Shown one piece after another: positions 3,994 through 48,291 of a stretch of 48,964 nt of DNA. The stretch comes from Candidatus Gastranaerophilales bacterium. Lineage in GTDB: Bacteria; Cyanobacteriota; Vampirovibrionia; Gastranaerophilales; Gastranaerophilaceae. The stretch spans positions 1 to 48,964 of the forward strand of contig JAFVFO010000025.1 in assembly GCA_017475485.1 (NCBI GenBank). The letters are read 5' to 3'. Position 1 is the first letter of the stretch, and each line of letters begins with the position of its first letter. The position numbers were made by a program, and so were the translations under genes. The notes under the pieces are model-generated. The model saw only the letters and a program-made list of their open reading frames with translations. It ran no database searches and was not told the DNA's origin.

Positions 3994-4053
3994 AAGCAAT
4001 TTTTTAGCTTTATATGTTTTATAGCTATGTATTTATTTTTTAAGGTTGGTTGA

Positions 4054-5487
4054 ATGTCACAAAATACTGTTTCACCGTTATTGCAATCGCGTATTAATAC
4101 CGCAAAATCTGCGCCAAAACCGCAAATACAGGATGATGATTTTGATGAAGATGTAGCTTTTAATAATACTTCTCAAATTGCGGCAGCCTCTATTGCTGCT
4201 ACGTTATGTATTTCCGCATTGGTTTTTGGCGGTATGCTGTATAAAAACAAGCAAGCTCAGGCAGATGCAATAAAAGTTTCAAATGAATTTCATGATATGG
4301 TTGCAAATTATGCGCAAAATGTTATGGATTATTGTGTAAAAATAAAAAATGAAATAGAAGAATGTTTTGCGAGTGCTTCGCTTAAAATTGAAAATGCACA
4401 TGTAGAAGCTCTGCAAATCAGCCAAAATGCAGTTAAAATACAGCAGGCTTCAATTGAACAATATAATAAAACAGAACCGGAAAAAATATTTCATGAAGTT
4501 ATGGATTTGATTAACTCTGCCAAGGCAAATGGTTTTCAAGCCGTTGAAGATGAAGCGCAAGGAATAAGAAGAACATTTGCAAAAGTTTCAAATAATGGTG
4601 AAGATAATATCATAATGCATGAAATTAAAGACGGAAAAATAATTCGTTCGGTTGTTTCAAATGAAGGTCATACTAATGTTGAATATACAAAAGGCGGACT
4701 TCGTACGGTTATTGATTTTATACGCGATTTTGAAGGCAAACCTCATAAAACAAGCATAACTTATAATGAGGAAAATGCCACATCTTCTCAAACTATAGTT
4801 TCTGAATTTTTACATCAAAATGGCGTACCCGTACTATCAAAATTCGTAAATTCAATAAAAGAAAAATGTACAGGTACAACAGAAACCGAAATTTATGAAC
4901 TGCCAAACGGTATTTTATCAAGGTTTGCCTTGAAAACTTCTGCCAATGATTCAACTTCTTATTTTGTAGATAAATGTTTTAATTTTGATTGTAACGGCGA
5001 AATGGAAAGCTATTACAAAGGTTTTTCGAGCGATACGAAATTGTGTGACGAGCTTTATGCCAATAACACTTTAGTTGAAAATGCAGAGTTATCTTCAAAT
5101 CCTGATAACATAGGCAGAATAATAGAAAATTCCGAATTTGAAAACTTTTTTGCTTTGTATAGATATGATAGCTATGATTTTTCACCACAGCATTTCACAA
5201 GCATGTATGAAAAAACCCAAGACGGCGCAAGAGCTGATGAAGTTTGGTTCGCTACTCCGAGTGGTGAAAAATATGTAAAAAATGCTTTGTTTGATAAACA
5301 AAACAGTATTACAAAAGAAGGAAGCAATATCTTAAAAGCGGACGACGAGCTTTATGTATATAACAAAAGTGATATTGATGAAATTCCTTATGACAGTAAT
5401 TGGGCATTTTACAACGGCGAATTCAGACGATGCAATATGCCCGATTTTTCCGCAAGAAATGAAAACGGCAAATTCGTAAGGGATTAA
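4054..5487 (+). CDS. SPLLQS-motif membrane-anchored protein, paralogue 1
   Basis: A 477-aa protein of unknown function. It has a short N-terminal tail with the motif SPLLQS at residues 7-12, an acidic linker, one transmembrane helix (about 41-62) and a predicted coiled-coil (about 75-150). A long C-terminal region of repeated short beta-rich stretches resembles YD/MORN-type antitoxin-like repeats, but no family is assigned. It shares architecture, the SPLLQS tail, an EFH motif just after the membrane helix and part of the coiled-coil with the gene at 5935. Its TAA stop overlaps the convergent yraN-like gene by 4 bp (TTAA). Confidence 0.8.
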   Translation: MSQNTVSPLLQSRINTAKSAPKPQIQDDDFDEDVAFNNTSQIAAASIAATLCISALVFGGMLYKNKQAQADAIKVSNEFHDMVANYAQNVMDYCVKIKNEIEECFASASLKIENAHVEALQISQNAVKIQQASIEQYNKTEPEKIFHEVMDLINSAKANGFQAVEDEAQGIRRTFAKVSNNGEDNIIMHEIKDGKIIRSVVSNEGHTNVEYTKGGLRTVIDFIRDFEGKPHKTSITYNEENATSSQTIVSEFLHQNGVPVLSKFVNSIKEKCTGTTETEIYELPNGILSRFALKTSANDSTSYFVDKCFNFDCNGEMESYYKGFSSDTKLCDELYANNTLVENAELSSNPDNIGRIIENSEFENFFALYRYDSYDFSPQHFTSMYEKTQDGARADEVWFATPSGEKYVKNALFDKQNSITKEGSNILKADDELYVYNKSDIDEIPYDSNWAFYNGEFRRCNMPDFSARNENGKFVRD

Positions 5488-13494: not shown

Positions 13495-15554
13495 TATTTA
13501 TTTTCTCCTTTTGAAATTAATTTAATACTCGGTGTAATGTTTGAATTATAAATATATATTCTTGGGTCGAAATATACATCCATTTTGAACTTTGTATTTA
13601 TAGTGCTTGCAAAAATAACTGCTTTTTCATCTTTTTTTATATAGTATTCTTTTTTAAAATGTTCTTGTATTTTCCCGTTATTAGAATTTTGAATATGCCA
13701 TTTTACATAATCAAGTTTTTCCGCTTCGGGATATTCTTTGACATATTCTATATAATCAGGAATAACCGCATGAATATTGTATCCTATTGAATGATAATAT
13801 GGAGCTTCGTATTTAATTAAGTCTGCTAAATCATTAAGGGTGCAATATTCGCGCGGATTTAGCGGAGTTGTTACATTAAAAAATATTCCAAGCATAATAA
13901 CAAAATAAATTGCCCTTATACTAAAGTACCATTTATTGAATTTTTCAATTTCTGCTAATAAAGAAATAACTGCGACTTCAACAATAAATAAAAGCCCGTA
14001 TATATTCATTACTAATTTTGCATGTATTATCGGCTTAATAAATAAAGATATTAAACCTGCAAAAATTAAAACCGAAACAATGCTGTATATTGAATAAATA
14101 AAGAGGTTTTCTTTTTCCTTGTTTACTTTGATTTTTGGTATAAAACAAATTATTAAATTTAATAAAACAATAAAACATAAAAATATAAAAAGATTTTCGC
14201 TGTAAAAATATTGATTAATTATATTTTTAAAAATATCAGAACTTAATTTTGGTATCCAGCTGTTGAAATCGGGAGATATTGCTTTATTAAAGGAAATAAA
14301 AATATAAGGAATAATTGTCAATAAAGAAATAAAACTTGCAATTAAAAAAGGTTTTAATTTATTTTTATTTTCTACTAAATCAACAACCCCCCAAATTAAA
14401 TTAGAAAAAAACAGTAAAATAAGGTAATAATTTGCATTTAATAAGGCTATGGAAGTAATTAAATATAAAATAAGATTTTTCTTATTTGTGGTTTTTAAAT
14501 ATTCAAATAAAATATAACAAGCTAATATTGATAAAAATATAGATAAAATATACCCTCTTGCTTCTTGAGAATAATAGATAAATATTGTATTTATACAAGC
14601 TAAAAAAGAGGCAAATAAACCAAGATTTTTGGAGATATTTTTAAATAAAAAATAACTCAAAGGAATAATTAAAACTCCAAAAAACATTGCTAAAAATCTT
14701 AATGTAAAAATATTATTTGAAAATATTTTTGTGAAAATAAATTCTAAAAGATAAAATAAAGGCGGGTTTCCCGCATCTTGAAAAACGGTTTTAAAACTCT
14801 TAAGCGCAACTGTTTTTGTATAAAGTTCATCTGTCCACAAAGGAAAATAAGTAATATCTTGTATTCTTATAATAAAACCGATAGCGCAAAGGAAAATTAA
14901 AGCATAGAGATATAATTTTTCATTAATTTTAAAATTAAAACAATCTTTATTGAAAACATATAAAAGATAAGCAACAAACAGCCAAAAATAAGGTATTATA
15001 AATATTTTCCAATTTGAAAATAAGGATAAGAATATTATCACAAAATGATTGATTGCACCCTTGTAGTTATTAATATCGGGTAAAATCAAGGTTTCATAAT
15101 TTTTATTTTCATTGGTTTCTTCAAATGCAATAGAATAATTTTTCTTTTTAAATTTTGAAATATCTTCTTTTGCCCAGTAATGGTTTTTGTTTCCGACACT
15201 TAGAAATATCTTTTGGATTTCGGGGTTTTGAATTTCTTTTGAATATGCTATTTTTATATTTCTTACTATGAAATTGAAAAAATACCTGTCATTATAGTTA
15301 AATTTGTAGCTATATACATTTCTGAAATTATCGCTTAGAGGGGCTGTACAACAATCGTTAAAGCAAACCAACAGATTATCAATAGGAATTTTATTTTTTA
15401 ATTCAAAGTTCAAAGAAACCGTTTCAAGGGTTTTGTTTAAATTTTGAATATTAAAATTATAAGGATATTTTAAAAAAGTAATTATAATTGAATAAAATGC
15501 AAATATCACCAAAAGCCAAAAGGCAGATAAAACAACTTTTTTATTTCTTTCCAT
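13494..15554 (-). CDS. GT39/ArnT-like polytopic glycosyltransferase, larger paralogue
   Basis: A 686-aa GT-C glycosyltransferase related to the 10971 product. The catalytic pair is D242-E243 in PLWTDELY, followed by the DAGNPPLFYL segment shared with its paralogue. A first membrane helix (about 8-28) precedes a roughly 140-residue soluble insertion carrying C64 and C68/C69 (CFNDCC). This is aligned in position with the Cys pair of the smaller paralogue and is not part of the minimal GT39 layout. It is first in the four-gene minus-strand run to 9783. The start at 15554 lies in a 70-bp divergent gap shared with ispG; the ribosome-binding site is weak. Confidence 0.88.
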   Translation of the reverse strand: MERNKKVVLSAFWLLVIFAFYSIIITFLKYPYNFNIQNLNKTLETVSLNFELKNKIPIDNLLVCFNDCCTAPLSDNFRNVYSYKFNYNDRYFFNFIVRNIKIAYSKEIQNPEIQKIFLSVGNKNHYWAKEDISKFKKKNYSIAFEETNENKNYETLILPDINNYKGAINHFVIIFLSLFSNWKIFIIPYFWLFVAYLLYVFNKDCFNFKINEKLYLYALIFLCAIGFIIRIQDITYFPLWTDELYTKTVALKSFKTVFQDAGNPPLFYLLEFIFTKIFSNNIFTLRFLAMFFGVLIIPLSYFLFKNISKNLGLFASFLACINTIFIYYSQEARGYILSIFLSILACYILFEYLKTTNKKNLILYLITSIALLNANYYLILLFFSNLIWGVVDLVENKNKLKPFLIASFISLLTIIPYIFISFNKAISPDFNSWIPKLSSDIFKNIINQYFYSENLFIFLCFIVLLNLIICFIPKIKVNKEKENLFIYSIYSIVSVLIFAGLISLFIKPIIHAKLVMNIYGLLFIVEVAVISLLAEIEKFNKWYFSIRAIYFVIMLGIFFNVTTPLNPREYCTLNDLADLIKYEAPYYHSIGYNIHAVIPDYIEYVKEYPEAEKLDYVKWHIQNSNNGKIQEHFKKEYYIKKDEKAVIFASTINTKFKMDVYFDPRIYIYNSNITPSIKLISKGENK

Positions 15555-35762: not shown

Positions 35763-36992
35763 ATGAATAGACGCGATTTTTTAGTTAATACAACACTTGT
35801 TGCCGGTGCAGGAGCGTTTCTTGCAGGGTGCGGTAAGGAAGAAATTATTCAAAAAGAAGGTTCTGTTGCAAAACGTAAGTTTAAAGACATGGAAATCCCG
35901 CTTCTTGGCTTTGGGTGTATGCGCCTGCCTATGAAATCCGAAAAAGAAATTGATATGGTTGAATTAGATAAAATGGTTGAATATTGTATGAACCATGGGG
36001 CTAATTATTTTGATACTGCTTATATGTACGTCAATTCTCAATCTGAAATTGCTATGGGCAAAACTTTGAAAAAATATCCTCGCGAAAGTTATATATTGGC
36101 TGATAAATCCCCGATTTATAAAATGAAAAATGAAGCAGATGTTAGAAAAATTTTCAATGAACAACTGAAAAAGTGCGGCTGTGATTATTTTGATTTTTAT
36201 ATGGCGCATAATATTAATAAAAATACTTACGATACATATAAATCAACTAATATGCACAAACAGCTTTTAGAACTTAAAAAAGAAGGCAAAATTAAATATG
36301 TCGGATTTTCTTTCCATGGCACGCCTTAAATTTTAAAAGAAGTTGTCCAAGAAGGCGACTGGGATTTTTGCCAATTGCAGGTTAACTATCTAGATTGGGA
36401 TGTGGTTAAAGGTAAGGAACAATATGAAATTGCACAAAGCGCGGGTATTCCTGTTACGGTTATGGAACCGCTTAGAGGAGGCGGGCTCGTAAACCTTTCA
36501 GATAAAGCATTACAAGAATTAAAAGCAAATTATCCCGATACTACACCTGCAGAGTTCGGGCTTCGCTGGGCCGCAAGTTTAGATAACGTTGTAACCGTAT
36601 TATCGGGTATGAGTAATCTTGAACAGGTCAGACAAAACATTAAAACTTTTGAAAATTATAAAGATATGACAAAAGAAGAAAAAGAAGTTGCAAATAAAAT
36701 TGCAAAAATTATTCAATCTCAAGGTGAAATTAACTGTACAGCTTGCAAATATTGCCTTGAAGTTTGCCCTAAAAATATAAATATACCTGCAATTTTCTCT
36801 TTGTATAATCAATATAAAGTTGTAAAAAATAAAATGATGTTTACAATATATTATGAAAGTTTGGCTGAAGAAGAAAGGGCAAATGCCTGCATAAAATGCG
36901 GTTTATGCAGTAAAAACTGTCCTCAGAGCCTTCAAATACCTGAACTTTTAGAAAAAATCGAAAAAGAATATAAAAAGGCAAAAGAAGAATAA
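35763..36992 (+). pseudogene. Tat-signal lipoprotein aldo/keto reductase-ferredoxin, interrupted by in-frame TAA
   Basis: Two open frames (35763-36329 and 36330-36992) lie in the same phase, separated only by TAA at 36327-36329. Together they make a normal 409-residue protein: twin-arginine signal (N-R3-R4-DFL) with lipobox LAGC at 20-23, then an aldo/keto reductase barrel with tetrad candidates D84, Y89, K115 and H149, then a C-terminal 2[4Fe-4S] domain (CTACKYCLEVCP and CIKCGLCSKNCP). The TAA follows FSFHGTP, where related proteins usually have a sense codon such as GAA before ILKEV. This is therefore a single-base nonsense change, a sequencing error or a rare readthrough site. It heads the Tat/polyferredoxin block. 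Confidence 0.85.
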
Positions 36993-38264
36993 ATGAAATA
37001 TAAAATCAGATTAACAATAGCAGGGATAGTTTTATTGGCTTCAATATGTGCGGTATTGGGGTTTTATCCTGTGCATTTTTTAAACATTGAATTCAGTCCG
37101 ATTTTACAGAAAACAATTACTAATTATACGGTTTTTTCATTAATAATATTGGTTTTACTTGTTTTATTTACAATATTTTTCGGAAGATTTTACTGTTCAA
37201 TTCTTTGTCCTTTTGGAATTTTACAGGAATTTGTTAATTTGATATTTAATAAAATTAAGGGTAAAAAATTGCCCGCTCTTGAATATATTGAACCAAAACC
37301 CGTCAAATATTTTATTTTAAGCCTGTGCTTCGGTGCGCTAATCGGGGGAAGTGCGGTAATAATAAGGCATATTGACCCTTATACTTTATTTGGTTCATTT
37401 ATCAGCTTATCAAAATTAGGAATAATTCTTACATTAATTGTATTGACATTAGTATTTTTCAAAAACAGATTTTTTTGTACATCAATCTGCCCTGTAGGCG
37501 CTATTTTAGGCTTATTGGCAAAATTTGCACCATTTAAAGTGTATATGAACGATAATTGCGTGCAATGCGGAATGTGTGCAAGATACTGCCCTTCTAAATG
37601 TATTAATCATAAAGAAAAAAATATAAAAAGCGAAAATTGCGTTAAATGTTTAAAATGTACGTCTGTTTGCCCGAAAGGCGCTATGAAATATGGCTTAAAG
37701 CCAAAGTTTGAACCTTTTGATGTAACAAGAAGAAAAGCCCTTATATCAACGGGTGCTATAGCTTTGTTTATAGGCGCGTGGGGAATGGGGGTTAAAATTT
37801 CAAAAGATTTATTTAAAAATATAAAAAATGTAATTTTACCGGCAGGAGCACAAAATGCGCAAAAAATGGCAAACAAATGTCTTAATTGCAATTTATGCGT
37901 AAATAATTGTCCTCAGGGTATTTTGCAAAAGGCAAATTCTGAAATACCTGCTGTTCATATTGATTATTCAAAAGGTAATCATTATTGCAAATATGATTGC
38001 AAAAAGTGTTCTGAAATATGCCCTGCGGGTGCAATCAAAAGACTTACTCTTGAAGAAAAACAAAATACTAAAATCGCAATGGCAAGCGTCAATAACTACT
38101 GTATAGGCTGTGGTGCATGTATTCGTAAATGCCCCAAGAAAGCAATATCTATAACAGATGGATTGGCAAAAGTAGATGGTGCTTTATGTATAGGCTGCGG
38201 TGCATGCAAGGCGGTGTGTCCTATGGCTGCTATAGATATTTTTGCTATAAATAAACAAATGTAG
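36993..38264 (+). CDS. NapH-NapG-like fusion polyferredoxin with internal twin-arginine signal
   Basis: A 423-aa membrane electron carrier. Residues 1-245 look like NapH: four membrane helices (about 8-26, 46-66, 106-124, 142-160), the CSILCP and CTSICP motifs (68-72, 162-166), and two cytoplasmic [4Fe-4S] sites (C189/192/195/199 and C216/219/222/226). Residues 244-265 read TRRKAL plus a hydrophobic stretch, like a Tat signal. The tail carries four further clusters (C296-306, C332/336-343, C370-380, C399-409), like NapG. Inferred topology: the last helix is inserted by Tat and the tail lies outside. It starts immediately after the reductase stop and precedes tatAC. Confidence 0.88.
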   Translation: MKYKIRLTIAGIVLLASICAVLGFYPVHFLNIEFSPILQKTITNYTVFSLIILVLLVLFTIFFGRFYCSILCPFGILQEFVNLIFNKIKGKKLPALEYIEPKPVKYFILSLCFGALIGGSAVIIRHIDPYTLFGSFISLSKLGIILTLIVLTLVFFKNRFFCTSICPVGAILGLLAKFAPFKVYMNDNCVQCGMCARYCPSKCINHKEKNIKSENCVKCLKCTSVCPKGAMKYGLKPKFEPFDVTRRKALISTGAIALFIGAWGMGVKISKDLFKNIKNVILPAGAQNAQKMANKCLNCNLCVNNCPQGILQKANSEIPAVHIDYSKGNHYCKYDCKKCSEICPAGAIKRLTLEEKQNTKIAMASVNNYCIGCGACIRKCPKKAISITDGLAKVDGALCIGCGACKAVCPMAAIDIFAINKQM

Positions 38265-38310
38265 AAATTTATGTTATCATATTAATAATACAAAATAAGA
38301 GGGAGATACA

Positions 38311-38544
38311 ATGTCAATCGGAATACCTGAAATAGCCCTGATTTTAATCGTAATTTTACTTCTTTTCGGCGGAAAAAGAATTCCGGAACTTGCTAAAGCG
38401 TTCGGAAGAGCTTCTTATGAATACAAAAAAGCAAAAGAAGTAATCAAAAAAGAAGCACAAGAACTAAAAGATGAAATTGATGCTACTATCGAAAAGCCTC
38501 AGGAATATCAAATTAAGGATAATGCCAAAGAGCCCGAAGTGTAA
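38311..38544 (+). CDS. tatA: Twin-arginine translocase subunit TatA
   Basis: A 77-aa single-span protein that forms the Tat pore. The N-terminal helix with an early Glu (IPEIALILIVILLLFGG), the FG hinge and RIPELAKAFG, and an amphipathic then charged tail are all typical. GAGGGAG lies before ATG 38311. No tatB is seen, so this is a minimal TatAC system. It is directly downstream of two proteins with twin-arginine signals and 17 bp before tatC. Confidence 0.95.
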   Translation: MSIGIPEIALILIVILLLFGGKRIPELAKAFGRASYEYKKAKEVIKKEAQELKDEIDATIEKPQEYQIKDNAKEPEV

Positions 38545-38561
38545 TTTTAGAAACAGATACA

Positions 38562-39281
38562 ATGGAACATGAAGACAAAGACCAAAGTATTATTGCACAT
38601 CTTGAAGAATTAAGAAGTACAATACTAAGGTGCTTAATTGCTATTGCAGTTGTATTACCTTTTGTATTCTATTTTTCAGGAGATATACTTGATTATCTTA
38701 CAAAATTGACCATTGGCAAAAATGATATAACTCTTAATTACTTTGCGCCAATGGAAGTTTTTATATTGCAGTTAAAATTATCCCTTTTAATTGACGCTGT
38801 AATATGTTTTCCTTATATTGTGAAAAATTTATGGGATTTTATTTTACCCGCACTTTATGACAACGAACGCAAATTTATAAAAAATATTGTATTATCATCA
38901 AGTTTTTTGTTTACATTCGGAGTTTTGTTTTGTCTTTTTGTAATAATTCCAATGATTATAAACTTTGGAATAAGTTTTTCGCGCTCAGAAATCCATGCTG
39001 TTTTTGGCATTTCAAATGTTATAAATCTGGCATTAAATATGGCATTAGTGTTTGGATTAATGTTTCAAATCCCGCTTATTGTTAATATGTTAATCAGGTG
39101 GGATATTGTAAGTTATGAAGATATCAGCCAATATCGCCCTTATGTGGTTGTGGCATTGTTAATTTTTTCGGCCCTTTTAACACCGCCGGATATAGTATCG
39201 CAAGTATTTTTGTTTACCCCTACATATCTTTTATTTGAACTTGGTCTTTTATTTTCAAAAAAGAAAAATCTGAACGATTAA
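38562..39281 (+). CDS. tatC: Twin-arginine translocase subunit TatC
   Basis: The 239-aa, six-helix receptor for twin-arginine signals. The N-terminal HLEELR motif, the SPMEVF-like APMEVF segment and the late PPD motif (LLTPPDIVSQ) are present. It follows tatA by 17 bp. Proximity to the Tat-signal reductase and the fusion polyferredoxin suggests a dedicated export block. Confidence 0.96.
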   Translation: MEHEDKDQSIIAHLEELRSTILRCLIAIAVVLPFVFYFSGDILDYLTKLTIGKNDITLNYFAPMEVFILQLKLSLLIDAVICFPYIVKNLWDFILPALYDNERKFIKNIVLSSSFLFTFGVLFCLFVIIPMIINFGISFSRSEIHAVFGISNVINLALNMALVFGLMFQIPLIVNMLIRWDIVSYEDISQYRPYVVVALLIFSALLTPPDIVSQVFLFTPTYLLFELGLLFSKKKNLND

Positions 39282-39318: not shown

Positions 39319-40329
39319 ATGTCAGAAAGTTTGTGTTATTTTTCTTTTATGAGTTTATCTGTGGCAACAAGTCTTTTAAAACCTCTTGAAACAAGTTCTT
39401 CTCTTGGTTTATTTGCGCGAGATACAGGCGGATGTTTGATTTCCAGATTATCGCTTTCAAGAAGCAATAATGAAAGAAAAGAAGTCAGCATGTCTGAAAT
39501 TTCAGAGTCTTTAATATTTTATTTTTCCGCACCCCTGCTTGCAAAATTAACGGGTAAACTATTTAACAATTTAACAAATGATAAAAATCTGGCAAAAACA
39601 GGGCAAATCTTATCAACCTTCAGCGTGATTCTTCCTTTGGTATATGCAATTGCACCGTTTAGAAACCTTATGACCCTTTCTAAAACGGGGCAGGATGAAT
39701 TTGTATCTGTTGTGGGATTAAAAAAGGAAGATAATAAAAAAGATAAAAAAGAGCAGGCAAAAGAAAAAGGTTTAGACCTATTAAAAAAAATATCGCTTGT
39801 TTCGCTTTCTTCTCTTGCAATGACGGGTGCGCTTTTTGGGGCATGTAAAAATGATAAAATTCATAAATCGCTTGAACCTGTGCTTAAAAAGTTCGCTAAA
39901 ACCTTTGAATTTAGTGATAAAAATGATTTAAAACTAATGCACTACGCTGCTTTGATTTATCCTGCCAGTATTTTGGGCTATTTTAAGGCCTCAAGAGATA
40001 AATATGAAGTTATGGAAAATGTAAGAAGATTTTGTGTAACCGTACCTTTGTTGTTTTTAGGGGATAAAGTAATTGAAAAACCAATTCATAAATTCTTCGA
40101 CAAATGTTTTAACACCAATGTTTTAGAAGGCAATGAAATTAAAAGCTATAAGGATATCTTGAAATTACCGCAAAATCAGCAAAAAGAATTTTTAAAAACA
40201 AAAAATTGGGCCTTCGCCTTAACTTTTTTGATTTCCACAATGTTTGTAGCGGGCGGTGTTGCGCTTTTAAACAGAATTCAAACCAAAAAGAATTACGAAA
40301 AAGATAACGAATTGAAAAATAAAAATTAA
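39319..40329 (+). CDS. Multi-span membrane protein of unknown function
   Basis: A 336-aa protein with about six hydrophobic segments, a lysine-rich linker (KKEDNKKDKKEQ, about 130-145) and a lysine/asparagine-rich C-terminus. I do not recognise a family. The ATG at 39319 has only a weak AAGG close by. An internal ATG at 39490 begins MSEISES, similar to the start of the SPLLQS paralogue 2 (MSEISMS), and could be the real start. It lies between tatC and larB with small gaps, so it may be co-transcribed with either. Confidence 0.65.
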   Translation: MSESLCYFSFMSLSVATSLLKPLETSSSLGLFARDTGGCLISRLSLSRSNNERKEVSMSEISESLIFYFSAPLLAKLTGKLFNNLTNDKNLAKTGQILSTFSVILPLVYAIAPFRNLMTLSKTGQDEFVSVVGLKKEDNKKDKKEQAKEKGLDLLKKISLVSLSSLAMTGALFGACKNDKIHKSLEPVLKKFAKTFEFSDKNDLKLMHYAALIYPASILGYFKASRDKYEVMENVRRFCVTVPLLFLGDKVIEKPIHKFFDKCFNTNVLEGNEIKSYKDILKLPQNQQKEFLKTKNWAFALTFLISTMFVAGGVALLNRIQTKKNYEKDNELKNKN

Positions 40330-40345: not shown

Positions 40346-41023
40346 ATGGATTATGTTGAAATTGATTGCGCAAAAATAGATACAGGAAGGCTTAAGAGGA
40401 AAGGCTATTCCGAAGTTGTTTATTGTGAATGTAAAACCACAGAGCAGTTAATTGAAATTTTTAAAACATTTAAAAACAATAATCAAAATGCTCTGGGAAC
40501 GCGCGCTTCAATAGAACAATTTAAGGCATTAAAAAAAGAATTGCCCGAAATTAAATATAACAGTGAAGCAAGAACGTTATCTTTAATACAAAAACCAATT
40601 GCAAAAACAGGTGAAATTGCAATATGTTGTGCAGGAACGGGTGATATACCGATTGCACTTGAAGCCAAGGAAACAGCGGAGTTTTTCGGAAGTAATGTAA
40701 AATGTTATTTTGATATTGGAATTGCCGGCATACATAGGCTTATAGATAAAATAGAAGAAATTAAATGCGCAAATGTGATTATAGCGCTTGCAGGCATGGA
40801 AGGAGCTTTGCCGAGTGTTATTGCGGGCATGGTTGATATACCTGTTATTGCAGTTCCTACTTCAATCGGCTACGGTTCATCTTTTAAAGGTATAACAGCC
40901 CTTTTTGCCATGCTTAATTCTTGTGCGGAAGGTATAACCGTTGTAAATATTGATAACGGCTTTGGTGCGGGGTACAGCGCAAACCAGATTAATTGCTTAA
41001 TCGCGAAAGGTAAAAATAGATGA
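40346..41023 (+). CDS. larB: Pyridinium-3,5-biscarboxylic acid mononucleotide synthase LarB
   Basis: A PurE-like enzyme that carboxylates and hydrolyses nicotinic acid adenine dinucleotide, the first step to the nickel-pincer nucleotide cofactor. The C-terminal PurE-like domain is plain: AGTGDIPIALEA, GIAGIHRL, ALAGMEGALPSV and PTSIGYGSSFKG, ending in NIDNGFGAG. The 225-aa length is near the family norm. It overlaps larC by 4 bp (ATGA), so the two are translationally coupled. Confidence 0.93.
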   Translation: MDYVEIDCAKIDTGRLKRKGYSEVVYCECKTTEQLIEIFKTFKNNNQNALGTRASIEQFKALKKELPEIKYNSEARTLSLIQKPIAKTGEIAICCAGTGDIPIALEAKETAEFFGSNVKCYFDIGIAGIHRLIDKIEEIKCANVIIALAGMEGALPSVIAGMVDIPVIAVPTSIGYGSSFKGITALFAMLNSCAEGITVVNIDNGFGAGYSANQINCLIAKGKNR

Positions 41024-41769
41024 AATTATATTTTGAATGTACAAACGGAATTTCAGGAGATATGACAATAGGCGCGCTTTTAAGTCTTGGCGCAGATAGA
41101 GAAAAGCTCGATAGGGCGCTTTCTTCCTTGAAATTGGATGATGAATTTTCTTATTTTATTTCCGATAAAAAAGTTAATTCTATTAATGCGGTTGATTTTG
41201 ATGTAACTTGCAAAAAAGATGAACATCATCACCATAAGCATTTACACAATAAACCCCATACCCACAGAAATCTTGAAGATGTAATTAACATTATAAATAA
41301 AGCGGATATCAGTGAAAATGCAAAAATATTGGCAAGAAAAATTTTTACAATAGTTGCACAGGCAGAAAGCAAGGTGCATGGTTTGCCGGTTGAAAAAGTA
41401 CATTTCCATGAAGTCGGGGCAATTGATTCAATTGTTGATATAGTTGCTTTTAGCGTGTTGTATGATGATATAAATCCGGACAGCGTCTTTTTTACGGCTT
41501 TAACGGAAGGAAAAGGTACTATATCCTGCGCCCATGGGGAATTAAATGTGCCTGTACCTGCGGTTGTTGAAATTGCAAAAGAATATAAAATTCCGCTAAG
41601 AATTATTGACAATGAAGGCGAAATGATTACTCCTACAGGAATTGCAATTGTTGCTTCGTTATATAAAAACAACAAATTACCGGAATCAATAATAATTAAA
41701 AATGCAGGCTATGGCCGGGGCAAACGCCCTTATAAAAATCCTGTATTAAGGATATTTGAAATTGAATAA
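41020..41769 (+). CDS. larC: Short LarC: nickel-pincer cofactor nickel insertion protein, N-terminal domain only
   Basis: LarC inserts nickel into the pincer cofactor with CTP. This 249-aa protein covers only the LarC1-like half: the CTNGISGDM start, a histidine-rich loop (H69-72, H74, H76, H80, H82) suited to nickel, HFHEVGAIDSIVD, and the closing AGYGRGK...PVLRI motif. The usual C-terminal domain (about 150 residues, CTP-binding) is absent. After the stop comes a transporter gene. Full-length LarC is about 400 aa, and in lactobacilli it arises from a programmed frameshift. Here I found no downstream LarC2 frame, so the missing half may be encoded elsewhere. Confidence 0.9.
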   Translation: MKLYFECTNGISGDMTIGALLSLGADREKLDRALSSLKLDDEFSYFISDKKVNSINAVDFDVTCKKDEHHHHKHLHNKPHTHRNLEDVINIINKADISENAKILARKIFTIVAQAESKVHGLPVEKVHFHEVGAIDSIVDIVAFSVLYDDINPDSVFFTALTEGKGTISCAHGELNVPVPAVVEIAKEYKIPLRIIDNEGEMITPTGIAIVASLYKNNKLPESIIIKNAGYGRGKRPYKNPVLRIFEIE

Positions 41770-42634
41770 AGTATCAATTATTGCAATTTTATCCGCAGTT
41801 TTTTACGGAATCAGCATTCCTTTTTCTAAAATCATGCTTATAAAAGGAGTTAACCCCATGGTGCTTGGTGGTTTAACCTATCTTGGTGCGGGATTTGGAC
41901 TTTTGTTGTTCAGTTTAATGAAATCATTCAAAAAAGAAAGAATTTTTCAAAACCCACTGGGTAAAAAAGAGTTTCCTTACGCTGTTTTAATGGTATTTTT
42001 TGATATTTTTGCAATTTTATTTTTAATGTATGGATTATCTAAAACGAATTCCGCCAATGCTTCTTTATTATCAAATTTTGAAATAGTTTCAACTTCAATA
42101 ATAGCCTTCATTTTTTTCAAAGAAAAAATTTCAAAAAAGCTGTGGTTTGCAATTATTTTAATTATTATAGCAAGTATTATCCTGACATACGAAGGTAGCA
42201 CTTGCCTTGATTTTACTTTTGGTTCTGTTTTTGTATTGTGTGCATATCTTTTCTGGGGAATGGAAAATAACTGTACAAAAATGATTAGCTCAAAAAATAT
42301 CTTTGAAACAACAATAATTAAAGGGGTCTGTTCGGGCATAGGCAGCCTTATTATTGCATATTTTGCAAAATGTGAAATACCTGCTTTTAATTTGATTTTT
42401 GCAATTTTAATAATGGGGCTTTTTTCGTACGGCATAAGCGTTTTAATGTATATTTATTCTCAAAACAAATTAGGTGCTGCAAAAACAGCCTCTTATTTTT
42501 CTTATGCGCCGTATATCGGGATTTTTGCAAGTATTATAATATTAAAAGAGCTGCCGAGTTTCCATTTTTTAATAGCTTTTATTATAATGTTATTTGCAGG
42601 ATGTTTAATTTACAAAGATAATAAAAATGATTGA
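41762..42634 (+). CDS. EamA/DMT-family transporter
   Basis: A ten-helix drug/metabolite-transporter superfamily permease of about 290 aa, built of two EamA repeats (about 1-140 and 145-290). The two TTG candidates, 41756 and 41762, lie 3 and 9 nt after AAGGA; I favour 41762. The start overlaps the larC stop by 8 bp, so it is coupled to the cofactor genes. Its substrate is unknown; a precursor such as a nicotinate-type metabolite is speculation. Confidence 0.88.
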   Translation: MNKVSIIAILSAVFYGISIPFSKIMLIKGVNPMVLGGLTYLGAGFGLLLFSLMKSFKKERIFQNPLGKKEFPYAVLMVFFDIFAILFLMYGLSKTNSANASLLSNFEIVSTSIIAFIFFKEKISKKLWFAIILIIIASIILTYEGSTCLDFTFGSVFVLCAYLFWGMENNCTKMISSKNIFETTIIKGVCSGIGSLIIAYFAKCEIPAFNLIFAILIMGLFSYGISVLMYIYSQNKLGAAKTASYFSYAPYIGIFASIIILKELPSFHFLIAFIIMLFAGCLIYKDNKND

Positions 42635-43232
42635 AAATTATGTAAAATACCTTGAATTTATAACAAAAAAGCTGGATAGTTTTTTTGAAAATCAGCGTGA
42701 TTATATTTTTTGCAAAAAAGGATGTGCAAAATGCTGTAAAAATGCGCAATTTCCGTACTCTTTAACGGAAGTAACCTATCTTTTGCAAGGCGCAATAGAG
42801 CTTGATGAAGATACCCAAAATAAAATTAAAACAAATATTTTAAACATTTTAAAGCAAAAAGAAGATTTTAAAGGGGATACTTTTTTATATGACTGCCCGT
42901 TTTTAATTGATGATGTTTGTTCTGTTTATAACTACAGGGGCTTAGTATGCCGAAGTTTCGGATTAATTAATCAAAATCCCTTGAATAATGATAATAAAAC
43001 AAAAATACCGTTTTGTTATAAAGAAGGCTTAAACTATTCAAATGTTATGGATATGGAACTTAATGAAATTACGCCTGAAAAATATGCTCAATCAGGCATT
43101 AAAGAAGAACCGCATGGTTATAATATCAGTTATGAATTTTTAACAGATAAAGATTTTGAGCGTGGTTTTAATTTTAAATTCGGTGAAAAAAAGGCACTAA
43201 TCGACTGGCTTATAGGCTTTAAAAAATATTAA
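42627..43232 (+). CDS. YkgJ-family cysteine cluster protein
   Basis: A 201-aa protein with the N-terminal CKKGCAKCC cluster (about 29-37) and later CPF, CSVYNYRGLVCRSF and C residues. This is the CxxxCxxCC pattern of the YkgJ/zinc-iron-chelating family, thought to bind a metal centre. It overlaps the EamA gene by 8 bp, making it the fourth gene of a larB-larC-transporter-ykgJ unit. Its stop shares TTAA with the convergent larE. Its role in the nickel-pincer block is inferred from position only. Confidence 0.85.
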   Translation: MIENYVKYLEFITKKLDSFFENQRDYIFCKKGCAKCCKNAQFPYSLTEVTYLLQGAIELDEDTQNKIKTNILNILKQKEDFKGDTFLYDCPFLIDDVCSVYNYRGLVCRSFGLINQNPLNNDNKTKIPFCYKEGLNYSNVMDMELNEITPEKYAQSGIKEEPHGYNISYEFLTDKDFERGFNFKFGEKKALIDWLIGFKKY

Positions 43233-44044
43233 ACATTTAATACTTCATTCATTGCGCCTGTTCTGTATCCTTCAATATCCATTGAAATATATTTAAAACC
43301 GTATTCTCTGAATTTTTCAGATATTATTTTTCTGTTTTTTAAAATTTTATCAAATTCATCTTCCAATACTTCAATTCTTGCAATATTATCATTGTGTATT
43401 CTGACTCTTAATTGGTGAAAGTCAAGGTCTATAAGAAGTTGTTCTGCCATATCAACCATTTTTAATTTTTTTTCGGATATTTCTTCTCCGTAAGGAAATC
43501 TTGAAGAAAGACATGCGAAAGACTGCTTATCGTATGTTTTTAGACCCAATTTTTTTGACAGCTGTCTTATTTCTTTTTTGTTAAGCCCTGAATATCTTAA
43601 AGGACTTTTTATTCCAAGCTCCTTAATTGCAATTAGTCCGGGGCGATAATCGCCCTCGTCATCAATGTTTGAACCTTCAACAACATGTTCAATTCCGTAT
43701 TCTTTTGCGGTTTTAAGCATTTTTTCAAACAGTTCTTTTTTGCATAAATAACATCTGTCGGGCGGATTTTTCCTAAAGCCTTCAATGTCTAATTCTTCCG
43801 ATTCCACAATAATGTGTTTTATATTTTCAGATTTACAAAATTCAATTGCTTCACTTAATTCTCTTTTTGGAAAAGAGCAAGATTTTGCACTGAGCGCTAT
43901 AACGTTATCTTTCAATACATCTTTAGCTGTTTTTAATAAAAAAGTAGAATCAACCCCTGATGAAAAAGCTACAACAACGCTATTAAGACTTTTCAGGTAA
44001 GTTTTTAATTTTTCAAATTTGTAATTTAAATTTTCATTTTCCAT
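43229..44044 (-). CDS. larE: Pyridinium-dithiocarboxylate sulfurtransferase LarE
   Basis: A PP-loop ATPase that adenylates the LarB product and adds sulfur to it. The P-loop AFSSGVDSTFL (26-36) is present. The cysteine equivalent to the sacrificial Cys176 of Lactobacillus LarE is C178 (SFACLSSRFPYG). Two more cysteines form CYLCK (C98, C101), matching the three-cysteine pattern of the [4Fe-4S]-type LarE enzymes. At 271 aa it has normal length. It is on the minus strand, converging with the larBC unit. No larA or larD is visible in the window. Confidence 0.93.
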   Translation of the reverse strand: MENENLNYKFEKLKTYLKSLNSVVVAFSSGVDSTFLLKTAKDVLKDNVIALSAKSCSFPKRELSEAIEFCKSENIKHIIVESEELDIEGFRKNPPDRCYLCKKELFEKMLKTAKEYGIEHVVEGSNIDDEGDYRPGLIAIKELGIKSPLRYSGLNKKEIRQLSKKLGLKTYDKQSFACLSSRFPYGEEISEKKLKMVDMAEQLLIDLDFHQLRVRIHNDNIARIEVLEDEFDKILKNRKIISEKFREYGFKYISMDIEGYRTGAMNEVLNV

Positions 44045-44121: not shown

Positions 44122-44162
44122 AAATTAAATAGAGAAAAAAATAACGATTGAAGGAGAAACAA

Positions 44163-44660
44163 ATGACTGGAAGCACAGTATCAATAGATTTTAAAACTAT
44201 TGATGAAATTCTTGAGTCTTGCAATTATTCAAAACAATACTTAATTGCTATGCTTCAAAAAGTTCAGGAAGTATATAAATATTTGCCTGAAGAAGCAATG
44301 ACTTACATTGGCGAAAAAGTGGATGGCTTATCCCCTGCAACGGTTTACGGGGTTGCAACTTTTTATGCACAATTTTCACTAGAGCCAAAGGGCAAATACG
44401 AAATCAAAGTTTGCGACGGTACAGCATGCCATGTTAGAGGTTCAATGCCTGTATTGAATGCAATCAGAGAAAAACTAAACCTTAAAGATAACAAAATTAC
44501 AACCGACGACGGCTTATTTTCACTGGAAATCGTTAGCTGTCTTGGTGCATGCGGTTTAGCTCCCGTTTGTGTTATAAATGAAAAAGTCTATCCTCAAATG
44601 ACTTCTGATGCTATTAGCATCGTGCTTGATACACTTTTAAAAGAAGAAAGAGGTAATTAA
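44163..44660 (+). CDS. hydC: [FeFe] hydrogenase subunit HydC (NuoE-like)
   Basis: A thioredoxin-fold [2Fe-2S] subunit of 165 aa, with ligands C84, C89 (CDGTACH), C126 and C130 (CLGACG). I start it at ATG 44163: a longer frame would begin at a TTG at 44148, but that sequence is the ribosome-binding site itself (AAGGAG at 44151-44156). It overlaps hydB by one base. It passes electrons between the HydB and HydA subunits. Confidence 0.95.
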   Translation: MTGSTVSIDFKTIDEILESCNYSKQYLIAMLQKVQEVYKYLPEEAMTYIGEKVDGLSPATVYGVATFYAQFSLEPKGKYEIKVCDGTACHVRGSMPVLNAIREKLNLKDNKITTDDGLFSLEIVSCLGACGLAPVCVINEKVYPQMTSDAISIVLDTLLKEERGN

Positions 44661-46504
44661 TGATAGATATTATTGAAGAACAAAATAAAGCCCAAGAACA
44701 CATTAAACAACAAGGTTTGCGTGTTTTGGTATGCGCCGGAACAGGTTGTGTTGCGAACGGTTCTTTAAAGGTTATTGAAAAATTCAAAGAATTAGGCGCA
44801 AATGTTTCTGCTCTTACGGATTATGATAAAATGACCATTGTACCCACAGGTTGTCATGGCTTCTGTGAACAAGGTGTTTTGGTTATTATTCCGGATAAAC
44901 ATGTTACTTATGTTAAAGTTAAAGTTGAAGATGTTGAAGAAATTTTTGAAAGCCATATTAAAAACGGCACTCCGGTTGAAAGATTATTATACAAAGACCC
45001 AAAAACCAATGAAGCTATTCATAAAAATGATGATATTAATTTCTATGCAAAACAAACTCGTACAGCTTTAAAAAATTGCGGAAAAATTAATGCCGAATCA
45101 TTGGAAGAAGCAATTTCAGTGCGCGGTTATGAAGCGTTAGCAAAAGTTATTACAGAAAATAACCCCGATAATGTTATTGATACAATTACAAAATCAGGCC
45201 TTAGAGGTAGGGGCGGCGGCGGTTTTCCGACAGGTATGAAATGGAAGTTCACCGCAGCAAACAGAGGCGGAAAATCATACGTTGTATGTAACGGAGATGA
45301 AGGTGACCCGGGTGCATTTATGGACAGATCTGTCATGGAAGGCGATCCTCATAAACTTTTAGAAGGTATGGCAATTGCAGCCTTTGCAATAGGTGCAGAT
45401 GAAGGATATATCTATGTCAGAGCAGAATATCCTTTGGCAATCAAACGTTTAAGAAAGGCTATAGCTGACGCTGAAGAACGTCATTTCTTAGGCGAAAATA
45501 TTATGGGTTCTGATTTTTCTTTTACCCTTCATATTAAAGAAGGTGCAGGCGCATTTGTTTGCGGTGAAGAAACGGCTCTAATCGCCTCAATTGAAGGTGA
45601 ACGCGGTATGCCTAGACCAAAACCGCCATTTCCTGCAAACAAAGGTTTATTCGGCCGTCCTACATTAATTAATAATGTTGAAACATTGGCAAATGTACCG
45701 TTAATAATCTTAAACGGTGCAGACTGGTTTGCTTCTATGGGCTGCGATACTTCAAAAGGTACAAAAACTTTTGCCTTAACAGGTGAGGTTAATAATACCG
45801 GCCTTATAGAAGTTCCTATGGGTACAACCTTAAGACAAATCATTTTTGATATCGGGGGCGGTATCCGCGGCGGTAAGAAATTTAAAGCTGTTCAAATAGG
45901 TGGCCCGTCAGGCGGTTGTTTAACGGAAGAACATCTTGATATTTCAATGGATTATGACAGTCTTATTAAAGCAGGTGCTATGGTTGGTTCAGGCGGTCTT
46001 GTTGTAATGGCCGAAGATACTTGCATGGTTGAAGTTGCAAGATTTTTCATGAACTTTACCAAAAACGAATCTTGCGGAAAATGCGTTCCCTGCAGGGAAG
46101 GCACTAAGAATATGCTGAAAATCTTAGAAAAAATTGTTAAAGGCAAGGGTGAAATGTCTGACCTCGATAAGCTCGAAGAACTGGCACACACTGTGAAAGA
46201 CGGTTCTTTATGCGGGTTGGGTAAAACTGCACCTAATCCGGTACTTTCAACTTTAAAATACTTTAAAGATGAGTATATAGCACACATTAAAGACCACAAA
46301 TGCCCTGCAGGCGTATGTAGCGCAATGAAAAAAATCACAATTAATGCAGATTTATGTAAAGGTTGCACAAAATGTGCCCGCACTTGCCCTGTCGGTGCTA
46401 TCGAAGGTACGGTTAAAAATCCTCACAAAATTAATCAAGAAAAATGTATTAAATGTGAGGCTTGCTTGAACGCATGTCCATTTAAGGCAATAAGCAAAGA
46501 GTAA
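44660..46504 (+). CDS. hydB: [FeFe] hydrogenase subunit HydB (NuoF-like, NADH- and FMN-binding)
   Basis: The 614-aa diaphorase subunit that links the hydrogenase to NAD. Order: an N-terminal thioredoxin-like [2Fe-2S] domain (C25, C30, C65, C69), the NADH/FMN-binding NuoF core (GRGGGGFPTG at 183-192), a [4Fe-4S] site in SCGKCVPCREG (about 471-481), and a C-terminal 2[4Fe-4S] ferredoxin domain (CKGCTKCARTCP and CIKCEACLNACP, from about 560). This extended form is typical of the bifurcating HydABC enzymes. It overlaps hydC and is 14 bp before hydA. Confidence 0.96.
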   Translation: MIDIIEEQNKAQEHIKQQGLRVLVCAGTGCVANGSLKVIEKFKELGANVSALTDYDKMTIVPTGCHGFCEQGVLVIIPDKHVTYVKVKVEDVEEIFESHIKNGTPVERLLYKDPKTNEAIHKNDDINFYAKQTRTALKNCGKINAESLEEAISVRGYEALAKVITENNPDNVIDTITKSGLRGRGGGGFPTGMKWKFTAANRGGKSYVVCNGDEGDPGAFMDRSVMEGDPHKLLEGMAIAAFAIGADEGYIYVRAEYPLAIKRLRKAIADAEERHFLGENIMGSDFSFTLHIKEGAGAFVCGEETALIASIEGERGMPRPKPPFPANKGLFGRPTLINNVETLANVPLIILNGADWFASMGCDTSKGTKTFALTGEVNNTGLIEVPMGTTLRQIIFDIGGGIRGGKKFKAVQIGGPSGGCLTEEHLDISMDYDSLIKAGAMVGSGGLVVMAEDTCMVEVARFFMNFTKNESCGKCVPCREGTKNMLKILEKIVKGKGEMSDLDKLEELAHTVKDGSLCGLGKTAPNPVLSTLKYFKDEYIAHIKDHKCPAGVCSAMKKITINADLCKGCTKCARTCPVGAIEGTVKNPHKINQEKCIKCEACLNACPFKAISKE

Positions 46505-46518
46505 AGGAAAAAATAATT

Positions 46519-48291
46519 ATGTCAGAAGATAAAAAAACACTAATAATCGAAGGTAAAGAGGTTGAATTTACCAACGAACCGAATTTGCTTGAAGTAATTA
46601 GAAAAGCGGGTATGAATGTTCCTACATTCTGTTATCGCCCTGATTTAACACCATTCGGTGCTTGCAGAATGTGCGTTGTAGAGGTGATTTATCCAAACGG
46701 CAGAACAATGATTAATTCATCCTGTACAATGCCCCCTGAAGCAGGTATTAAAGTATTATTAAATACCGAAAGGGTTAGAAAAATAAGAAAAATGGTGCTT
46801 GAATTATTACTTGCAAACCATGACAGAGAATGTACATCCTGCGATAAATCAGGTTCTTGCGAACTTCAACAATACGCTGAAGAATATGGAATTAAAGATG
46901 TTAAAAAATATGCCCAAAAAGAAGATTGGCAAGAAATTGATAATTCATCCGATTGTTTGGTTCGCGATAATAATAAATGTATTCTCTGCGGCGCATGTGT
47001 CAGAGCATGCCATGAACATCAGGGCTTGCAGGTATTAGGCTTTGCTAACCGCGGTTCAGCTACCCATGTTCAACCAATGGCAGGCAAACCTTTGGCAGAT
47101 ACAGAATGTATTAATTGCGGTCAATGTGCTGCAGTTTGTCCGACAGGCGCATTGACAATCAAATCGGTTGTAAATGATGTATGGGCTGAAATTACAAACC
47201 CGAATAAAAAAGTTGTTGCACAATTTGCGCCTTCCGTTCGTGTAGCACTTGGTGAAATGTTTGGTTTAAAACCCGGTGTTAATACAACTAATAAAATTAA
47301 TGCTGCCCTAAAGAAAATCGGCTTTGATTTAGTATTTGATACAAATTTCTCAGCTGACTTAACAATCATGGAAGAAGCTCAAGAATTTGTTACCCGTTTA
47401 ACAACAGGCGGAACTCTTCCTATGTTTACATCATGCTGTCCCGGCTGGGTCAGATTTTTAGAATTACAACATCCTGATATGCTTAATCATCTATCTACCT
47501 GTAAATCTCCCCAAGGAATGCTGGGTGCTGTTATAAGAGAATATGTACCTCAATACTATCCTGAAATAACAAAAGAAAATCTTGTAAGCGTTTCTATAAT
47601 GCCATGTACAGCTAAAAAATATGAAGCAAAACGCGAACAATTCAAAATGGAAGACGGCAGGCAGGAAATAGATTACGTTATGACAACTCAAGAATTGGGC
47701 AGAATGATAAAATCAGCAGGTATTGATTTTAACTCTCTTGAAGATGTTCCTGCAGATTCACCATTTGGCCAATATACAGGTGCGGGTACAATCTTTGGCG
47801 TGTCGGGCGGTGTTGCTGAAGCTGCCGCAAGAACAGCTTATACTCTTGTAACAGGTCAAGAACTTCAAAATGTTGTAATAAATGATATGAGAGGCACTCA
47901 TAGAGTTAAAACCGTTGAATTAGACCTTAACGGTACAAAAGTTAAAGTCAAAATCGTTAATACATTGGCTGAAGCCGAAAAATGTATGAGAGAAATCAAA
48001 GAAGGCAAAGCCGATTATCAACTGTTAGAAGTTATGGCTTGCCCTGGCGGATGTATTAATGGCGGCGGTCAGCCGTTGAGCTTTAATGATTCTAATATTA
48101 AAGAACAGCGTGCACAAGGGCTATATACTGATGATGAACAAGGTCAATACAGAAAATCTCACGAAAACCCTGAAATTAAAGAGCTTTATGATAAACATCT
48201 TGAAAAGCCAAATTCTCATAAATCCCATGAATTATTGCATACCTCATATAGCGATAAGCGTTCGGGATGTTATATCGGAATTGCTAAATAA
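46519..48291 (+). CDS. hydA: [FeFe] hydrogenase catalytic subunit HydA
   Basis: The H2-producing subunit, 590 aa. The N-terminal relay is complete: [2Fe-2S] C38, C49, C52, C69; His-ligated cluster H101, C105, C108, C114; and two [4Fe-4S] (C154/157/160/164 and C197/200/203/207). The H-cluster motifs are intact: TSCCPGW (proton-relay C306, ligand C307), MPCTAKK (C363), and CPGGC (C508, C512). The C-terminal small-subunit-like end is present, and no extra [2Fe-2S] tail is seen. With hydB and hydC this makes a HydABC-type electron-bifurcating enzyme oxidising NADH and ferredoxin together. Maturases hydE, hydF and hydG are outside the window. Confidence 0.97.
   Translation: MSEDKKTLIIEGKEVEFTNEPNLLEVIRKAGMNVPTFCYRPDLTPFGACRMCVVEVIYPNGRTMINSSCTMPPEAGIKVLLNTERVRKIRKMVLELLLANHDRECTSCDKSGSCELQQYAEEYGIKDVKKYAQKEDWQEIDNSSDCLVRDNNKCILCGACVRACHEHQGLQVLGFANRGSATHVQPMAGKPLADTECINCGQCAAVCPTGALTIKSVVNDVWAEITNPNKKVVAQFAPSVRVALGEMFGLKPGVNTTNKINAALKKIGFDLVFDTNFSADLTIMEEAQEFVTRLTTGGTLPMFTSCCPGWVRFLELQHPDMLNHLSTCKSPQGMLGAVIREYVPQYYPEITKENLVSVSIMPCTAKKYEAKREQFKMEDGRQEIDYVMTTQELGRMIKSAGIDFNSLEDVPADSPFGQYTGAGTIFGVSGGVAEAAARTAYTLVTGQELQNVVINDMRGTHRVKTVELDLNGTKVKVKIVNTLAEAEKCMREIKEGKADYQLLEVMACPGGCINGGGQPLSFNDSNIKEQRAQGLYTDDEQGQYRKSHENPEIKELYDKHLEKPNSHKSHELLHTSYSDKRSGCYIGIAK

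Follow-up and report, generated by a model that had tools for sequence, protein, structure and literature searches.

Gene content of the locus

The window analyzed here, the 48,964-nt contig JAFVFO010000025.1 of Candidatus Gastranaerophilales (assembly GCA_017475485.1; its own genome is labelled G000), contains four consecutive plus-strand genes that encode an iron-sulfur (Fe-S) aldo/keto reductase (AKR), a fusion polyferredoxin (PFD), and the twin-arginine translocation (Tat) proteins TatA and TatC, followed downstream by larB, larC and larE (Table 1). This block probably encodes a Tat-dependent transmembrane Fe-S conduit that serves the exported AKR and, in the clade of the window, is coupled to the synthesis of the nickel-pincer nucleotide (NPN). 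The observed basis of this interpretation is gene content, conserved motifs, co-occurrence, joint loss and linkage; Sec insertion, Tat dependence, topology, AKR activity, a requirement for NPN, and electron exchange along with its direction are what we infer.

The gene order AKR-PFD-tatA-tatC, already proposed in a first-pass annotation of the window, was confirmed by the open reading frames (ORFs) and by Pfam; that annotation overlooked a stop codon within the AKR gene and the three lar genes just downstream. The tatC gene is the sole TatC match of its assembly, which is 89.67% complete. TatA scores 49.0 bits against NCBIfam model TIGR01411, slightly short of the cut-off of 53.9, and larB, larC and larE all exceed curated cut-offs. 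Beside larE, window positions 44148-48291 hold genes that, named by eye, resemble NuoE, NuoF and HydA of a bifurcating [FeFe] hydrogenase.

Table 1. Coordinates of the AKR-PFD-tatAC block and its neighbors in the window
Feature	Position	Strand	Evidence or remark
Fe-S AKR with a Tat/lipobox-type N-terminus, interrupted by an in-frame TAA at 36327-36329	35763..36992	+	ORFs, Pfam
AKR twin-arginine (RR) signal and lipobox (MNRRDFL ... LAGC)	35763..35831	+	sequence motif
NapH-NapG type fusion PFD, 423 aa, Cys enough for seven 4Fe-4S clusters	36993..38264	+	Pfam, cysteine comparison
PFD internal twin arginine, residues 246-247, invariant	37728..37733	+	22/22 open frames
PFD fifth transmembrane segment, residues 249-267, then K/R-rich residues	37737..37793	+	hydropathy
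tatA	38311..38544	+	PF02416 (TatA_B_E) 51.9 bits, cut-off 21
tatC	38562..39281	+	Pfam TatC 192.4 bits, cut-off 25.1
protein without Pfam or NCBIfam match	39319..40329	+	in some relatives also between tatC and larB
larB, NPN biosynthesis	40346..41023	+	NF033503 287.9 bits, cut-off 175
larC	41020..41769	+	PF01969 258 bits; TIGR00299 181 bits, cut-off 90
EamA-family transporter	41756..42634	+	in several relatives a CbiM/NikM-type gene instead, between larC and larE
larE, sulfur transferase of NPN synthesis	43229..44044	-	TIGR00268 327 bits, cut-off 150

The fusion polyferredoxin

Pfam domains Fer4_5 and Fer4 were detected in the PFD, which was compared across 22 open frames above 380 residues, that of the window included. 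It contains 28 cluster cysteines, four in two CxxxCP motifs, eight ahead of the RR and 16 behind it; 25 of these are present in all 22 sequences and the other three in 21. Judged by their positions, these cysteines would ligate seven 4Fe-4S clusters, of which three would lie on the inner and four on the outer side of the membrane. The RR at residues 246-247, mostly followed by x[FLI][IL], is likewise conserved in all 22 sequences. Hydropathy reveals five main helices and two hydrophobic stretches covering the CxxxCP motifs. Helix 5 has the lowest mean Kyte-Doolittle value (1.80, compared with 2.02 to 2.74 for the others) and a net charge of +1.67 on its C-terminal side; the charge bias suggests a topology with the N-terminus inside, five helices and the tail outside. 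The earlier description of the gene as a NapH-NapG-type fusion with an internal RR and four clusters behind it thus holds; this RR is conserved, as that reading requires, and the charge bias suggests the outside tail that it predicts.

Scores against two NCBIfam NapH models (102.6 bits with a cut-off of 234, 99.7 bits with one of 213) fall far short, so we consider the protein NapH-like rather than NapH. A search of contigs with the PFD yielded three loci, one of them close, from Candidatus Gastranaerophilales (49% identity). Among solved structures, 13 chains matched the PFD (E up to 1e-10), and none of the best-matching stretches covered the NapH-like half. One relative (G052; locus L053, 5706-10430) has about 0.7-0.8 kb of extra DNA in three gaps of the block and a stop inside its PFD match.

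This architecture is not new. The available text of Tooke et al. 2017 (PMC5449189) describes a NapH-NapG fusion PFD with five helices, seven clusters, an RR before a weak fifth helix and positive charges after it, and reports Tat-dependent export of reporters fused to one such PFD. The first-pass annotation knew of no named system with this gene set; the fusion type by itself is a named one, and the PFD as a new kind of protein is ruled out. Like the dual Sec/Tat PFD of MLMS-1 (Q1NSB0), the window PFD combines a NapH-like four-helix part and a NapG-like tail in one chain, and it shares with the published type the seven-cluster cysteines, the RR before transmembrane segment 5 (TMD5), a weak TMD5 and the positive charges behind it; it fits the known family, as far as that is described in the portion of the paper at hand, in all features tested here. 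The weakness of TMD5 was judged by mean Kyte-Doolittle hydropathy in the window and by insertion energies in Tooke et al. The hosts named in that portion include a deltaproteobacterium, chloroflexi, nitrospirae and euryarchaeota, and it mentions no linkage to AKR, tatAC or lar. The two-chain relative NapGH, the quinol dehydrogenase of nitrate respiration according to the same partial source, likewise combines NapH-like clusters at the membrane with four exported clusters resembling those of NapG. In contrast to NapGH, the window has a single polypeptide, no nap genes among the identified neighbors, and scores far below the napH cut-offs.

Co-occurrence and joint loss of the polyferredoxin and Tat

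The main survey covered 287 Gastranaerophilales genomes; a smaller set consisted of 98 relatives including G000, partly from the wider class. In the main survey, PFD matches were found in 101 genomes and TatC in 106: both are present in 96, PFD only in five, TatC only in ten, and neither in 176. In 94 of the 96 genomes with both, the two genes share contig and strand, the median distance between them being 292 bp. The tatAC adjacency thus recurs, and its being peculiar to this contig is ruled out. When ten partial or broken PFD matches are excluded, TatC is present in 90 of the remaining 91 PFD genomes. In the smaller set, PFD was detected in 27 genomes and TatC in 46, of which 16 belong to the wider class.

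The TatC-only genomes comprise three with distant TatC-like proteins (G061, G063, G067), two with matches below the model cut-off (G128, G169), three with C-terminal partial matches (G014, G156, G246; that of G156 is at a contig start, so that its neighborhood is unseen), and two with a complete TatC gene and no PFD (G033, G244). In the PFD-only genomes, the PFD is truncated, fused or half-length in four (G046, G135, G207, G208) and full-length in G134.

Ten genomes retain scars of the block. An AKR fragment is joined to the C-terminal half of TatA and followed by an intact tatC in G033; AKR pieces and a PFD piece running into LarE are found in G009, AKR pieces abutting LarE in G044, and AKR fragments in G034 and G022. 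A broken AKR and PFD adjoin LarE in G019 and G046, and G208 has an AKR-PFD chimera along with a LarE piece. In G217, an intact AKR is followed by the start of the PFD fused to NikM, and in G216 an AKR fragment abuts a broken LarB. The break points differ, which indicates that the block was lost repeatedly. In nine of the ten scar genomes, tatAC is gone together with the block, the exception being G033 with its tatC. The retention and loss of Tat together with one small block provide a natural experiment on why cells keep Tat.

A second, distant TatC-like protein, adjoining a gene that by eye resembles an rRNA methyltransferase (L155, 4494-5261; L157, 4830-5561; L158, 5110-5841), occurs in genomes both with and without the main TatC.

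The aldo/keto reductase

The in-frame TAA divides the window AKR into 188 and 220 residues in an otherwise continuous frame. Aldo_ket_red (PF00248) matches both pieces, and the 4Fe-4S dicluster domains Fer4_9 and Fer4_17 are found in the second. The first-pass identification of this gene as a Tat lipoprotein AKR with two clusters is borne out by the RR, the lipobox and the AKR and dicluster domains, and requires correction in that the reading frame is interrupted. The interruption may be genuine or an artifact of assembly; intact copies exist in relatives. Given the stop, the AKR of this genome may be non-functional. Among 26 intact AKRs compared, three of them from Bacteroidales, all have the RR motif and 24 the lipobox pattern.

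AKR matches 340 or more residues long occur in 90 of the 287 genomes, G217 being the only one of these without a PFD match. Accordingly, 89 of the 101 PFD genomes have such an AKR; in 86, including G208 with its chimera, it directly precedes the PFD on the same strand at a median distance of 36 bp, and in G008, G176 and G295 it is located elsewhere. Sequence identity to the G001 protein divides the AKRs into clade I (at least 53%, over a match of at least 340 residues) and clade II (44 to 48%).

Linkage to nickel-pincer nucleotide synthesis

The larB, larC and larE genes are responsible for the synthesis of NPN, a rare nickel cofactor, and LarA is the known NPN user. LarA over the cut-off was found in none of the 98 relatives, own genome included, with one match below the cut-off in G061. 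In addition to lacking a detected LarA, the window differs from the lactate racemase system larABCE, with which it shares larB, larC and larE, in that its larC aligns with no more than the initial part of the profile and in the link to an exported redox block. The window LarC matches positions 1-233 of 375 in PF01969, and that of locus L058 (11332-12066) positions 1-234; the C-terminal domain thus seems to be missing from both scanned proteins, and other LarC are similar in length. At least 11 loci have a CbiM-family NikM-type gene between larC and larE; one was scanned (158.8 bits) and the remainder were assigned by similarity or first residues. At L058, an FMN-reductase-like gene with an RR and a lipobox (13773-14510) immediately follows larE.

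LarB exceeds the cut-off in 79 of the 287 genomes. Five of these (G059, G061, G065, G067 and G168) lack a TatC of the block type; in 64 of the remaining 74, LarB follows TatC on the same strand at a distance of at most 2.5 kb. Its presence follows the AKR clades closely: LarB was detected in 68 of the 71 genomes with a clade-I AKR and in none of the 19 with a clade-II AKR. The three exceptions in clade I are G030, where the contig ends, and G208 and G217, which carry scars. The PFD split runs parallel, with LarB in 68 of 72 clade-I and none of 19 clade-II PFD genomes (the ten partial or broken PFDs excluded). Eleven genomes have LarB without a long AKR: six contain AKR pieces (G011, G168, G202, G240, G253, G301), G244 contains none, and four have another arrangement.

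In five genomes, lar is not adjacent to tatC. It is distant on the same contig in two of them, by 42 kb in G231 and by 21 kb, on the opposite strand, in G250; in G248, G274 and G176 it lies on a separate contig, and the stretches retrieved there contain no tat genes. G241, G245 and G267 were not counted as unlinked, with lar near contig starts and possibly linked. G013 and G040 encode a clade-I PFD and TatC and neither AKR nor LarB; they are placed among LarB-containing lineages in the PFD tree, where their pairing has support of 93/91. In G008, a second AKR, away from the main block, is immediately followed by nikM. The match of LarB to clade I, the unlinked lar genes, G013 and G040, and the AKR-nikM pair of G008 point to the AKR rather than the PFD as the partner of NPN.

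In its available part, a 2024 study (PMC11796402) states that about 15% of the genomes it analyzed, many of them cyanobacteria, have larB, larE and larC without larA, the user being unidentified. The close match of one exported AKR clade with LarB offers a concrete candidate for an NPN user. In the most specific version of this idea, the clade-I AKR would be the sought non-LarA user: it would take the cofactor along through Tat as a substitute for free NAD(P)H, and the cofactor would be reduced outside by electrons from the PFD. We regard this version as improbable. The AKR alignment revealed no residue change showing loss of the NAD(P) site in clade I, and the LSGM...N motif and putative catalytic D, Y, K and H residues, which we take to be nucleotide-binding and catalytic, respectively, are kept in both clades. 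Because these usual motifs are retained, direct use of NPN by the AKR stays speculative.

Occurrence outside the order

Three side-by-side PFD-AKR pairs were found in Parabacteroides distasonis and Bacteroides finegoldii records (Bacteroidales). Both proteins are homologous to those of the window and both bear an RR, which precedes the last helix in all four PFDs read and is present in all three AKRs read; unlike in the window, the PFD comes first in two of the three pairs. One P. distasonis record includes a DUF362 protein with an RR start adjoining a PFD. A plasmid collection contains 130 records with a match, of which three, all from Bacteroidales, span 80% or more of the PFD.

Literature searches found nothing joining Gastranaerophilales or Melainabacteria to twin-arginine translocation, nothing on aldo-keto reductase with twin-arginine and iron-sulfur in Bacteroides, and nothing on nickel-pincer with aldo-keto reductase. 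No description of the variant with both lar coupling and tat linkage was found in the literature searched, and the context of the block looks new.

Proposed mechanism and alternative explanations

In the mechanism that we propose, the NapH-like half of the PFD, with four helices and three clusters on the inner side, would be inserted by Sec, and the internal RR and fifth helix would pass the NapG-like tail with its four clusters to Tat, supplied by the adjacent tatA and tatC. The tail would exchange electrons with the Tat-exported, lipid-anchored AKR holding two 4Fe-4S clusters, enabling redox chemistry on an external carbonyl or hydroxyl compound with no need for free NAD(P)H. Within the order, tatAC would be retained mainly for this conduit and AKR. 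In the clade of the window, the system would be functionally coupled to NPN synthesis by larB, larC and larE, in some cases with nikM, although no LarA was found.

Several observations, in the following and the next paragraph, weigh against this mechanism. The AKR is broken in the genome of the window itself; if the stop is genuine, other Tat lipoproteins may be what the conduit serves there today. Internal stops are found in nine of the 90 genomes with a long AKR match (340 residues or more). The Pfam TAT_signal model matches no AKR N-terminus in the window or the 98-genome scan. It also misses most PFDs, with weak matches for G041 and G056 alone in that scan, so the Tat assignments, favored in the first-pass annotation as well, rest on the motif, hydropathy and conservation. 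G244 retains tatA, tatC, larB, larC and larE without AKR or PFD, and G217 an intact AKR without most of the PFD, Tat or LarB. Homologous AKR-PFD pairs in Bacteroidales favor the mechanism as such, but around them an incomplete gene table lists no tatAC, lar or nikM within about 8 kb, which suggests that the AKR-PFD pair is more widespread than its lar-linked version. Finally, the Fisher tests on co-occurrence ignore kinship and serve as a rough guide only.

As for the coupling to NPN synthesis, the lar genes could be passengers that make NPN for an unlinked cytoplasmic enzyme, with the co-occurrence stemming from linkage and shared ancestry. Linkage in 64 of the 74 genomes favors this explanation, and the contrast between clades I and II in LarB could reflect a single ancestral event. 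Moreover, G168 retains full-span larB, larC, nikM and larE after PFD and Tat were lost; G050 (98-genome set only, 85% complete) encodes an intact AKR (53% identity) and lacks LarB; G059, G061, G065 and G067 have LarB in a differing larE-larB arrangement without PFD; and larE-larB pairs occur without the block in families f2 and f4. On the other hand, the co-occurrence persists in the five genomes with non-adjacent lar, none of the 19 carriers of a clade-II block has LarB, and G013 and G040, having neither AKR nor LarB, keep PFD and Tat. Taken together, we consider passenger status of the lar genes rather unlikely.

The direction of electron flow in the conduit could be the opposite of that proposed, with the exported AKR oxidizing an outside hydroxyl compound and electrons passing inward via the PFD to a cytoplasmic ferredoxin or [FeFe] hydrogenase. 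The putative NuoE/NuoF/HydA-type genes adjoin the block, and a 2013 genome paper (PMC3787301) calls these bacteria H2-producing fermenters in the portion available. Nevertheless, in the two-chain relative NapGH, a quinol dehydrogenase, the flow is outward (PMC5449189, available portion), and we find an inward conduit unlikely. That same accessible portion of PMC3787301 states that neither membrane electron carriers nor terminal reductases were found in the genomes of the group that it studied. The proposed membrane Fe-S conduit and its exported enzyme, conserved in about one third of the 287 genomes, call this view into question for part of this group of gut bacteria.

Other exported proteins with Tat motifs

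A Tat-signal scan of the 98 genomes yielded tandem RR proteins, mostly lipobox-bearing, of two types. All seven RR-bearing proteins of the first type that were scanned match Radical_SAM over the cut-off. The second type is distantly similar to peptidase U32 (one of nine members scanned exceeds the cut-off) and has C-terminal cysteines. The genome of the window has six matches to the U32-like Tat lipoproteins, two of them cut by contig ends. In G031, which lacks TatC, both U32-like homologs begin at the mature domain, without a signal; G040, which has Tat, also encodes one signal-less copy. The Tat system thus probably serves further Fe-S clients, and in the genome of the window such lipoproteins may now be its main ones.

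These proteins bear on a broader explanation, namely, that PFD and Tat are a general support system for several exported Fe-S proteins, with the AKR being one client in the process of being lost. The presence of Tat-motif radical SAM proteins and distantly U32-like lipoproteins in genomes with PFD and TatC, the signal-less starts of both U32-like homologs in Tat-less G031, the internal stops in AKRs, and the retention of PFD and Tat without AKR in G013 and G040 are all in line with it. Conversely, the presence of a long AKR match in 89 of the 101 PFD genomes, directly upstream in 86, argues against it. General support is a serious contender that we rate as quite possible, if somewhat short of probable; a conduit serving primarily the exported AKR remains our preferred interpretation.

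To our knowledge, export would be highly unusual for radical SAM proteins. The publication consulted on such proteins, PMC10924467, was not on point in its available part.

The U32-like loci are L101 (292-2787, in the genome of the window), L102 (2-646), L108 (4391-6885), L123 and L131. Proteins, many of them in tandem, in which a Tat motif, mostly with a lipobox, precedes the radical SAM CxxxCxxC are encoded at L103 (4577-11330), L104 (4097-8702), L109 (4257-7099), L105 (5410-6591), L107 (3414-4607) and L110 (4080-4945). The Tat-motif radical SAM proteins were found in genomes with PFD and TatC, and at L103 a neighboring copy (3499-4557) has no signal.

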